Shown: piece by piece, positions 56,374-61,503 of the stretch
Layout: the number at the start of each line of letters is the position of its first letter
Numbering within the stretch: the first letter of the stretch is position 1
DNA from: Desulforamulus ferrireducens
GTDB lineage: Bacteria; Bacillota; Desulfotomaculia; Desulfotomaculales; Desulfotomaculaceae
DNA length: 64,000 nucleotides
Assembly: GCF_002005145.1 (NCBI RefSeq)
Contig: NZ_CP019698.1
Location: forward strand, 2,728,001 to 2,792,000
Direction of reading: 5' to 3'
Position numbers and translations under genes: made by a program
Notes under the pieces: generated by a model
The model's input: only the letters and a program-made list of their open reading frames with translations
Database searches by the model: none
What the model was told of the DNA's origin: nothing

Positions 56374-57069
56374 CTAATTAGTCATCTCCTTATACAATTT
56401 ATTAATGGAACTGCTTTCTATACGGGAAATAAAGCTGCGCGAAATAGCCAGTCTTTTTCCCACTTCCCGCTGGGTTAGCTCCCGCCCCCCGTCTAAACCA
56501 TAGCGTAAACGAATTACCATTTGTTCCCTTGGTGTTAACTTGGTTAAGGCTGTTTCCAGTTTTTCCAGCTCTAAACTGGTTTCCACCTGCTCTTCCACGG
56601 GTATATCTTCGGTCATCAGGGTATCCTGTAATTCAAGGGGAGTACCATCTTTGTCGTAGTCCAAGGGTTCGGACATGGATATGTTGCCTCGTTCATTCTT
56701 CTGTTTACGTAAAACCATCAATATCTCATTCTGAATACAAACTCCGGCATAGGTGGAGAATTTACTGCATTTTTGCGCATCAAAGGTGTCCACTGCTTTA
56801 ATTAAACCCACCACACCATTTTGAAACAAATCCTGTTTATCCACCCTGGGGTCCTGTAGTTTATTAGCAATCTTGGCTACCAAACGTAAATTTCTTTCGA
56901 TTAATATTGTCTTGGCCAGTTGATCCCCCTTAGACAGCCTAAGCAGCAGTTCTTTTTCCTCCTTGGGAGACAGCGGCTCTGGCAAAGTACCGGAAGAAAT
57001 ATATGAAACCAACAGAATTATACCGTTCAAAATAGATAGAGCCAATATTGTTAAAAGAGCAGGTGACAA
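56374..57069 (-). CDS. sigK: Sporulation sigma factor pro-sigma-K
   Basis: A 231-aa sigma-70-family factor. The TTG at 57069 is preceded by GGGGAGGG; the longer frame lacks a ribosome site. It begins with a hydrophobic pro-sequence (LLTILALSILNGIILLVSYI), as in pro-sigma-K, which is removed when the factor is activated in the mother cell. Region 2 (IERNLRLVAKIANKLQDPRV, then DLFQNGVVGLIKAVDTFD) and region 4 (TKLTPREQMVIRLRYGLDGG, LAISRSFISRIESS) are complete. No skin-like insertion interrupts it. A CATACTGTA promoter for a coat-like gene occurs at 60871. Confidence 0.9.
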   Translation of the reverse strand: MSPALLTILALSILNGIILLVSYISSGTLPEPLSPKEEKELLLRLSKGDQLAKTILIERNLRLVAKIANKLQDPRVDKQDLFQNGVVGLIKAVDTFDAQKCSKFSTYAGVCIQNEILMVLRKQKNERGNISMSEPLDYDKDGTPLELQDTLMTEDIPVEEQVETSLELEKLETALTKLTPREQMVIRLRYGLDGGRELTQREVGKRLAISRSFISRIESSSINKLYKEMTN

Positions 57070-57167
57070 AAAGATCCCTCCCCTAAAAATAAGTCTTATT
57101 TCCATGCTATGACACTTAGCAGACAATTGTGCCTGTCTTGAAAGCTATGTTAGTATGTAATATATGG

Positions 57168-58933: not shown

Positions 58934-58942
58934 AGATGGCTA

Positions 58943-58984
58943 AACCAGTAAGTGTCGCAAAATTTTGCGACACTTACTGGTTTT
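58943..58984. terminator. Perfect palindromic bidirectional terminator
   Basis: A perfect palindrome of about 40 bp centred on AAAATTTT (AACCAGTAAGTGTCGC and its complement), between pit and the radical SAM gene. T-runs flank both ends. Confidence 0.88.
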
Positions 58985-58993
58985 CTATGATCT

Positions 58994-60217
58994 TTAGCAA
59001 AATCTCATCCAGCGAGACATTCTTTTGGTTTCCTGTCCCACCACCCAGAAGAGACAGTTCTCCAGTGGGGGGGTGAAGTGGTCGCCGGTTTGTTCAAAAT
59101 TCACCGCATAGCAGCCACCGGCACAGGGGCGGGAGCAGTTTCGACAATGACCTGGTTGACGACTGATGGCATTTTGGAAAGGTGCCAGTTTTTTAGCATC
59201 AAGGCCGGTATGAACATTGCCCACAATATAACGCCCGGCCTTATCGGTTAACCCTAAAAGTTTGGAACAAGGGCTGATATCCCCATTGGGAGCAATGGCC
59301 AAGGAAGTACTACCTGCCCGGCAGCCCCAACCTAGCCGCTCCCTATCATCCTTTTCGAATTCCTCGATAAATAATGCTTTACCCTGTCGTTGGTAGTTGT
59401 GATAATCCTCTAAAATCTTCACCATGTTTTTCCCATACCGTTCGATCTGCTCTAGATGCCAAGGCTCTGCCCCTTGGGCCGGAGCAATAATCAACTGATT
59501 AATACCCAACTGAACAATTTGATGAAAATCTTGCCGCATGGTATTTATGGCCTCTTTACTGACGGTCATTCTAGCTCCCAGCCAGGGCTGATATTTCTTA
59601 ATCAGAGGGATGAGATTGGCAATTTTTTGCCAGGTGCCCTCCCCATTGCGGGTGCGGCGATAACGATCATGGGTCTCCTGCCCGCCATCGATACTTAGAA
59701 GTATATTAATATGGTTTTGGGAAAAAAATCGGAGCATCTCTTCGTTGAGCAGTGTGCCGTTGGTGGTTAGGGCCCAGGTAATTGCCAAATTTTTTTCCTT
59801 GGCCCGCCTTAAAGCATAGGGCACGATTTCTTTAATCAGCCCAAACTCCAGCAGCGGCTCGCCGCCAATGAGGGTAATTACCACATTGGAAAAAATCGCC
59901 TTGTCCATTAATAAATCAATTGCTTTCTTGGCTGTGGCAAAACTCATCCGCTCCTCAGGACTTTTGCAGTGTATAAAGCAATATTCACAAGTAAGATTAC
60001 AGTTGAAGGTAACATTAAGCTCTATGGCTGCCAAACCCAGCTTTGCCTGGGCTAACTCATGGTCGGCCAGTTTTGCCAATTTTTCTGCCTCTGGCTGAGA
60101 CAAAGCAAAGGTTCTTTTTAAGGCAGCAGTTAAATCAGGTAGAGAGTAGCAGGGATGTCTCCCGACATACTCTCTGATAAAACGCACCATACTATTTAAC
60201 CGGTTCTTATTCTCCAT
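58994..60217 (-). CDS. Radical SAM/SPASM peptide maturase
   Basis: A 407-aa enzyme. The cluster motif is FNCNLTCEYCFIHC (C73, C77, C80), followed by GGEPLLEFG (residues 118-126) and the SPASM auxiliary-cluster region: C299, C317, then HCRNCSRPCAGGC (C358-C369) and C388. These features are typical of enzymes that crosslink cysteines to other residues in peptides. The ATG at 60217 is 2 bp after the stop of the cysteine-rich repeat protein, with GAAGGAG inside that gene's last codons, so the two are translationally coupled. The frame continues upstream of this ATG but without a better ribosome site. The repeat protein is the obvious candidate substrate. Confidence 0.9.
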   Translation of the reverse strand: MENKNRLNSMVRFIREYVGRHPCYSLPDLTAALKRTFALSQPEAEKLAKLADHELAQAKLGLAAIELNVTFNCNLTCEYCFIHCKSPEERMSFATAKKAIDLLMDKAIFSNVVITLIGGEPLLEFGLIKEIVPYALRRAKEKNLAITWALTTNGTLLNEEMLRFFSQNHINILLSIDGGQETHDRYRRTRNGEGTWQKIANLIPLIKKYQPWLGARMTVSKEAINTMRQDFHQIVQLGINQLIIAPAQGAEPWHLEQIERYGKNMVKILEDYHNYQRQGKALFIEEFEKDDRERLGWGCRAGSTSLAIAPNGDISPCSKLLGLTDKAGRYIVGNVHTGLDAKKLAPFQNAISRQPGHCRNCSRPCAGGCYAVNFEQTGDHFTPPLENCLFWVVGQETKRMSRWMRFC

Positions 60218-60219
60218 AG

Positions 60220-60831
60220 CTACTCCTTCTTGCCCTGGGGAGCAATCCCAATAAAGGCCTGGCCGGGACAGCTGAAACCACCGGGGGCGTTGCAACCGAA
60301 GGGCAGACCACAGGGCTGCTGGAATAGGTAAGTACAGGGTTGGGTAAATCGTACCCCACAGGGCTGGAAGAAAAATCTAAAGCCACAGGGTTGGTAGAAA
60401 TTAAAACCGCAGGGCTGTTGGAAATTGAAAGTGCAGGGCTGGAAAATACCATAGGTGCAGCCGCCCCCCTGGGGTTGCCCTGGGGTATAAAAGCCGGGGC
60501 AGGCAAAGGTATTGGTGCAAATATCCGGTGGAATGCAGACATACTGATTGACACAGTTAAAGCCTGGGAAGGAGGTACAAACAACCCGCTCCTCCACTTC
60601 AGCCCTTAGTTGATTGGCTAGATATTCCATATTCTCTTCTGTGAGAGTTTCTTTGCCTTCCCCATCCCAAATGACCGTTAAGGCAGATAGGGGTACAGTG
60701 GCTATTCTATTGTCCACCTGCAAACGAATAAAATGCCCGTTGGCTTCCAGTAAAGTGCCAGAGATTTTCTTTCCATTTATTATTTCAATGGTTAGGTATT
60801 TACCCACGCTGGCCAGCATTTCATCAGCCAT
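60220..60831 (-). CDS. Sm-like leader domain fused to a cysteine-rich Q-P-C repeat core (candidate peptide precursor)
   Basis: A 203-aa protein. Residues 6-57 form a small beta-barrel resembling the Sm-like/DUF2642 type (VGKYLTIEIINGKKISGTLL, HFIRLQVDNRIATVPLSALT). A charged linker leads to residue 84. From 85 on there are 14 cysteines and none before. Six Q-P-C motifs end at Cys133, 141, 149, 158, 166 and 174 (spacing 8, 8, 9, 8, 8), mostly followed by aromatic residues. Two bases after the stop is a radical SAM/SPASM gene. This layout is that of a multi-core thioether-type peptide, or a spore-coat protein whose cysteines are modified. No signal peptide or Gly-Gly cleavage site is obvious. 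Transcription by sigma-K is suggested by the promoter at 60871. Confidence 0.88.
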   Translation of the reverse strand: MADEMLASVGKYLTIEIINGKKISGTLLEANGHFIRLQVDNRIATVPLSALTVIWDGEGKETLTEENMEYLANQLRAEVEERVVCTSFPGFNCVNQYVCIPPDICTNTFACPGFYTPGQPQGGGCTYGIFQPCTFNFQQPCGFNFYQPCGFRFFFQPCGVRFTQPCTYLFQQPCGLPFGCNAPGGFSCPGQAFIGIAPQGKKE

Positions 60832-61236
60832 TTGTGCTCACTCCTCTGTAAATGGATATTCTTTCCTATTTACAGTATGTAAAAGGTATTGCATTGGTAC
60901 CTGTCCGGCAAAATAAGGCAATAAAAGAAAAACGCAGCTCAATGAATGAACTGTGTTACAGTGATAGTCTTTTGCTCTGCCAACTCTTCCTCACATCAAA
61001 CATAAGCAACCCCCCATCCTTTTCTATAATGCGTGTTCTTCCGGGTACAAGTTATCCCCAGATAATATTGGGGAGTAATATTACTTTGATACATTCTCTG
61101 GAAATTCTTCTCTTGCCTTGAATTTTGTGTTGTAGAAAAAATTTTTATCCAAAAATATAAAAACATTGCTCTTTATTGACCATAGGGAAACATCATTGGT
61201 CCTTCGATCATATGCTGTAGCGGAGGTGTAAATAAA
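60832..61236. other. Divergent intergenic region upstream of the repeat protein gene
   Basis: About 405 bp between two divergent genes. It holds a sigma-K-type promoter (60871-60898), and a hairpin CCCCA-GATAATAT-TGGGG (about 61057-61074). Otherwise it is AT-rich without a gene. A second sigma-K-like match near the other gene is listed among rejected observations. Confidence 0.5.
60871..60898 (-). promoter_or_regulatory. Sigma-K-type promoter for the cysteine-rich repeat gene
   Basis: On the minus strand AC (60897-60898), a 17-nt spacer and CATACTGTA (60871-60879) match the sigma-K consensus AC-N16/17-CATANNNTA at every defined position. The predicted start near 60864 gives a 33-nt leader with GAGGAG before the ATG at 60831. 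Confidence 0.65.
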
Positions 61237-61503
61237 GTGAATAGTTTTCCCGATATCGGTCAATCAGTATTTCATGTGCGTACTCAGAAACCCTGTATTG
61301 TCCTGGGGGGATGCCCCGGTAGCCGGTTAGTAACCATTCGCTTTGAAAATAGGTCGGTGGCCTCTGTTCGTCTAGAAGAGGTTGTGCCAAATAAGACTTC
61401 GGTCTGCCCCCGCTGTGGCAAAAGGATTAAGCCGGTTCAGGACGGAGTTTGCAAATTATGCAAGGCCACCAGGTGTTCCCGGTGCCGTAGGTGCCGTTGT
61501 TAA
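61237..61503 (+). CDS. Small protein with C-terminal cysteine cluster (88 aa)
   Basis: An 88-aa protein from a GTG preceded by CGGAGGTG (8-nt spacing). N-terminal residues 1-55 look like a small beta-barrel (VFHVRTQKPCIVLGGCPGSR, VTIRFENRSVASVRLEEVV). The C-terminus holds a zinc ribbon CPRCGKRIKPVQDGVCKLC and an unusual dense tail (RCSRCRRCRC). No family recognised. It is divergent from the repeat protein, and both combine a beta-barrel-like N-terminus with a cysteine-rich C-terminus. A shared function is possible but unproven. Confidence 0.72.
   Translation: MNSFPDIGQSVFHVRTQKPCIVLGGCPGSRLVTIRFENRSVASVRLEEVVPNKTSVCPRCGKRIKPVQDGVCKLCKATRCSRCRRCRC

Follow-up and report, generated by a model that had tools for sequence, protein, structure and literature searches.

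A candidate cross-linked spore structural protein and its radical SAM/SPASM enzyme in Desulforamulus ferrireducens

We analysed a 64,000-nucleotide stretch of the Desulforamulus ferrireducens genome (hereafter the window), in which a gene encoding a 203-aa Cys-rich precursor (60220..60831, minus strand) is followed by a gene encoding a 407-aa radical SAM/SPASM enzyme (58994..60217, minus strand). Our preferred reading, to which we assign a probability of roughly 55%, is that the pair is a late-sporulation structural RiPP-like system in which the enzyme would cross-link the Cys/aromatic tail of the precursor for the coat or outer layer of the spore. The first-pass annotation of this DNA had described a candidate repeat-core peptide system. 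The gene pair, the Sm-like leader and the type of enzyme all held up on analysis; Gln-Pro-Cys (QPC) as a general signature did not, and the character of a secreted peptide fits poorly with a sigma-K-type promoter and with neighbourhoods that hold no conserved transporter or protease.

A conserved two-gene unit

The enzyme ATG lies 2 bp past the precursor stop codon (AAG AAG GAG TAG CT ATG), and the AGGAG of its ribosome site falls within the final precursor codons, both as originally annotated. An inverted repeat read directly from the sequence, CCAGTAAGTGTCGCAAAATTTTGCGACACTTACTGG (58940..58985), is a probable terminator between the enzyme gene and a convergent phosphate transporter gene. Divergent from the precursor gene is an 88-aa ORF (61237-61503, plus strand) that begins SH3-like, contains a zinc-ribbon motif (CPRCGK) and ends in a Cys-rich tail, and for which no Pfam or NCBIfam family scored over its cut-off.

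Precursor homologues and close enzyme homologues (E under 1e-60 or 1e-80) were sought in independent searches, which returned identical sets of genomes: 14 of 100 among the relatives, 19 of 113 within the class and 6 of 398 in a sample of the phylum. Fisher tests on the latter two sets gave 6e-22 and 2e-13, values that are optimistic because the genomes share descent. This co-occurrence, a check that the first-pass annotation had asked for, is perfect and backs the enzyme-substrate pairing proposed there. In the units that we read, including those from distant lineages, the enzyme gene stood directly downstream of a precursor gene. In several genomes there are additional precursor copies with no enzyme gene beside them; no such copy was found in an enzyme-free genome. 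Across genera, no neighbour other than the partner gene was conserved, and neither a transporter nor a protease recurred near the pair among the neighbours compared. Precursor and enzyme almost certainly constitute a dedicated two-gene unit, one that is conserved over many genera and thus more than a chance arrangement.

Carriers of the pair were found in Desulforamulus, in Pelotomaculum and related MAGs, and in Sporomusa malonica, a member of another class; cultured species among them include Desulforamulus aeronauticus, Desulforamulus ruminis, Pelotomaculum propionicicum and S. malonica. The nearest named relative of the enzyme is from D. aeronauticus (82%), and in a profile search of genome contigs with the enzyme alignment, identity fell from 58% to 38% outside the carrier group. 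The pair is missing from 4 of 9 Desulforamulus genomes and from many other relatives in this spore-forming group, and it is therefore not essential for sporulation. The S. malonica enzyme shows 62% identity despite the distance between the classes, which suggests horizontal transfer; the pair also occurs in a second genome of the same order. In Desulforamulus aquiferis the precursor and enzyme frames are both broken, which may reflect sequencing error or decay.

Domain architecture of the precursor and the enzyme

The precursor comprises a predicted Sm/Hfq-like domain, a linker helix (residues 65-82) and a C-terminal portion (residues 85-203) containing the Cys/aromatic tail (residues 85-189; 60265..60579, minus strand). 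A recount from the translation agreed with the annotated split of no Cys in residues 1-84 and 14 in the remainder (85, 93, 99, 105, 111, 125, 133, 141, 149, 158, 166, 174, 180 and 188), and with the six reported QPC motifs (at 133, 141, 149, 158, 166 and 174, spaced by 8, 8, 9, 8 and 8). The suggestion of a Sm-like N-terminus was likewise borne out. For approximately residues 1-57 (60661..60831, minus strand), the AlphaFold model has a helix and five strands (mean pLDDT ~72-84 over residues 1-50), and the top PDB match from Foldseek was Hfq (E 1.4e-4, target TM 0.75). The N-terminal helix and five-strand barrel of the Sm/Hfq fold are thus present in a predicted model of moderate confidence, and weak Pfam LSM matches were obtained for 14 of 18 members of the precursor family. 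Unlike Hfq and Sm proteins, to which the sequence matches are weak, the domain here forms the N-terminal part of a Cys-repeat protein. AlphaFold gave no confident structure for the tail, a sequence search retrieved no meaningful solved relatives of the precursor, and a comparison of the precursor with NCBIfam returned zero matches.

The enzyme consists of a helical N-terminal domain (residues 1-57), a CX3CX2C motif at 73-80 and SPASM Cys at 299, 317, 358, 361, 365, 369 and 388. Its sequence contains CNLTCEYC, WGC-x17-C and CX2CX3CX3C plus C388, and this CX3CX2C motif with seven SPASM Cys, as in radical SAM/SPASM peptide maturases, is invariant in 16 enzymes. The protein scored over the Pfam cut-offs for Radical_SAM (3.5e-15) and SPASM (1.6e-5). 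All close members checked share the SPASM motif CX2CX3CX3C, which in most of the next relatives is replaced by CX2CX5CX3C. The best NCBIfam match was the PapB family (NF047865; 226.1 bits, cut-off 340), followed by QhpD (TIGR03906; 181.6 bits, cut-off 453), and the SCIFF maturase family (TIGR03974) gave 161.9 bits against a cut-off of 425. Assignment to PapB, QhpD, the SCIFF maturases or another NCBIfam maturase was rejected, as all scores among the matches listed fell below cut-off. These three nearest families all form thioethers of the non-alpha type. The annotation as a ranthipeptide/sactipeptide-type enzyme is supported, with the protein lying outside every curated family cut-off. The best PDB matches of the enzyme model were structures of CteB (5why, 5wgg). 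The model of residues 1-57, built from a shallow alignment, shows helices and lacks the strands that mark a winged RRE-type domain; that these residues might stand in for an RRE domain is unsupported, the alignment being too shallow. The same genome encodes a separate homologue (C1:85507) of SCIFF-maturase-like length with 32% identity.

Among known systems, SCIFF with its maturases CteB and ScfB resembles the pair in that CteB is the nearest solved structure and the SCIFF substrate, found in clostridia, is Cys-rich; it differs in that our enzyme lies below the maturase cut-off and our precursor lacks an NCBIfam match. QhpD acts on a protein subunit and installs several thioethers (S-Cbeta to Asp, S-Cgamma to Glu; PMC8326336), but its substrate is unrelated.

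Tail signature and candidate cross-link

QPC was rejected as the defining motif because it proved to be lineage-specific, being absent in S. malonica and different in another carrier genome (G189). The signature common to divergent precursors is Cys-X3-Phe/Tyr. In the window precursor, 9 of 14 Cys have Phe or Tyr at +4 (2.9 expected), and Cys99 has Asp103 at this position. Six divergent precursors have an aromatic residue at +4 for 77 of 87 Cys (88%; 18 expected). After repeats were collapsed to distinct pentamers (n = 251), an aromatic residue stood at +4 in 143, compared with 29, 29 and 45 at +1, +2 and +3; these counts, like those for the promoter below, are not fully independent, as related sequences share descent. 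The tails are otherwise highly variable, with GPFQFGQPC in Pelotomaculum, CFERFGQP and CYQAYAQP in a second genome (G246), CRERFGPPPP in G189 and no repeats in Sporomusa. A C-terminal segment, PGGFxCPGQQF, is conserved. The main exception to the +4 rule is the Pelotomaculum repeat (CGPFQFGQPC), where the aromatics fall at +3 and +5.

We propose that the enzyme would recognise the Sm/Hfq-like domain, which would act as a folded leader. The PapB-like enzyme would abstract H from the residue four positions downstream of Cys (Phe or Tyr, sometimes Asp or His) and couple this residue to the sulfur of the Cys, so that thioether rings of the form Cys-X3-aromatic would recur along the tail. Of the single reactions, thioether formation from Cys to the +4 residue is the likeliest, although we put it at somewhat below even odds, and the aromatic acceptor is a prediction; the proposal rests on analogy with PapB, which links Cys to Asp or Glu in CX3D/E (PMC9413430). 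As in the PapB/PapA (freyrasin) system, the substrate has repeated Cys-X3-acceptor motifs. Unlike in that system, the acceptor is mostly Phe or Tyr and not Asp or Glu; the precursor has one CX3D (C99-D103) in place of repeated CX3D/E, and the pair further differs in its Sm-like folded leader, its SPASM motif CX2CX3CX3C and its late-sporulation promoter. The known ranthipeptide acceptors (Asn, Thr, Asp and Glu) bear a polar group beside the reacting carbon (PMC8326336); among non-alpha links, one to Phe or Tyr would be uncommon.

The tail may instead be modified by a different linkage (an alpha-carbon thioether, a cyclophane or another aromatic C-C link), with the role in the spore unchanged. 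The next-nearest relatives of the enzyme (PapB-like, in Chthonomonadales, Poribacteria, Planctomycetaceae and Chlorobiota; L066-L072) lie near Cys-rich proteins with [FY]-x-C repeats, in which an aromatic residue occupies Cys-2 in 56 of 78 cases and +4 in only 25 of 82. Most of these proteins carry a Tat-like RRxF leader, none matched an NCBIfam precursor family, and together they appear to form a RiPP group of their own that is as yet undescribed. With distant enzymes located near aromatic-X-Cys precursors, the cross-linked pair may be one other than Cys and its +4 residue, and Cys-Phe alpha links are found in subtilosin A. Because the nearest named families make non-alpha thioethers and the +4 spacing matches that of PapB, we regard a different linkage as unlikely, while giving it more weight than any of the alternatives discussed below.

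Sigma-K-type promoter and putative role in the spore

Upstream of the precursor gene we identified a sigma-K-type promoter by its sequence motif (ACCAATGCAATACCTTTTACATACTGTA; 60871..60898, minus strand), whose CATA lies 48 bases upstream of the ATG. The pattern AC-N17-CATA-N3-T is found upstream of 22 of 23 precursors, mostly 35-53 bases from the start (1.3 expected from shuffled DNA), and at 9 of 211 other ORF starts of the same loci. The motif also precedes 4 of 6 divergent precursors, with a gap of 16-17. As a positive control we used dpaA, a late mother-cell, sigma-K gene in B. subtilis, which has the same promoter arrangement upstream in 21 of 24 relatives. Sigma-K-type -35 and -10 elements thus lie upstream of the precursor gene, in a layout that agrees with the B. 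subtilis sigma-K elements, where a gap of 14-16 separates a 5-nt from a 10-nt element (PMC517825). From these motifs, the pair is very probably expressed late in sporulation in the mother cell, and the promoter points to a mother-cell structural protein. A SigK-subfamily sigma factor (56374-57126, minus strand; NF004471 278 bits, cut-off 252; below the TIGR02846 equivalog cut-off) is encoded ~2 kb from the pair and close by in four Desulforamulus loci, a nearness that is no evidence of control.

In the cross-linked spore protein that we favour, sigma-K RNA polymerase would transcribe the two-gene operon in the mother cell, the Sm/Hfq-like domain could assemble into a ring displaying about six Cys/aromatic tails, and the product would stay with the producing cell and be built into the spore coat or an outer layer. 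The long tails and the lack of a conserved transporter or protease fit such a structural role, which is on the whole probable. We infer the thioether chemistry and its exact atoms, the ring assembly and the incorporation into the spore.

It is conceivable, if on balance doubtful, that RiPP-like structural proteins of a new class are at hand here, in which Cys-X3-Phe/Tyr thioether rings, installed by the radical SAM enzyme under the guidance of a folded Sm/Hfq-ring leader, harden an outer endospore layer. The open-access literature yielded nothing on a radical SAM enzyme whose substrate belongs to the spore coat, on Sm-like coat proteins or on DUF2642 and spores, which is weak evidence of novelty because the search was limited to open-access papers. 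Most of what is known of radical SAM peptide chemistry concerns small peptides that act as antimicrobials or signals, along with a few enzyme cofactors. If our reading is correct, this chemistry would have been put to use on long repeat proteins to make spore material, strict anaerobes would gain a covalent cross-link for spore layers by an anaerobic route that replaces oxygen-dependent ones, and aromatic acceptors and folded, ring-type leaders would join the repertoire of the field. The pair is a directly testable enzyme-substrate system present in cultured species.

Enzymes of this family are typical of secreted ranthipeptides and sactipeptides, and the precursor might be such a RiPP, an antimicrobial or signal cut from its Sm-like leader. 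In favour of this, disruption of Clostridium beijerinckii ranthipeptide genes lowered sporulation gene expression (PMC8102284). However, an export route through a neighbouring transporter or protease was rejected on the comparison of neighbours above, and the size of the cores (~65-250 residues), their content of as many as 26 Cys, the folded leader and the late mother-cell promoter make secretion improbable.

Another explanation is that the tail belongs to an ordinary Cys-rich coat protein, linked by disulfides or metal, and that the enzyme has its target elsewhere. CotX, CotY, CotZ and ExsY are Cys-rich, mother-cell expressed, cross-linked structural proteins; we found no sequence relation between these coat and exosporium proteins and the precursor, and we know of no radical SAM partner for any of them. 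CotY and ExsY build spore layers (PMC9562818), and the orphan precursor copies away from the enzyme gene would suit this explanation. It is made quite improbable by the finding that every precursor genome has the enzyme and vice versa, and by the position of the enzyme gene immediately downstream even in distant lineages. A role of the precursor as a regulator, with RNA bound by its Sm-like domain and the tail as a sensor, would accord with the modelled fold match to Hfq, but the long, variable, low-complexity and changing tails better suit a structural role, and we give this idea next to no weight.

Two further Sm-domain proteins were observed among the loci. One is an orphan with Tyr/His/Cys repeats (YGCRYNYGC...; L050:2007-2615, minus strand) at a locus without an enzyme match. 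The other is a short paralogue in genome G005 (L027:1480-1818, plus strand), whose single Cys (PCNFPF) is itself part of a CX3F motif.
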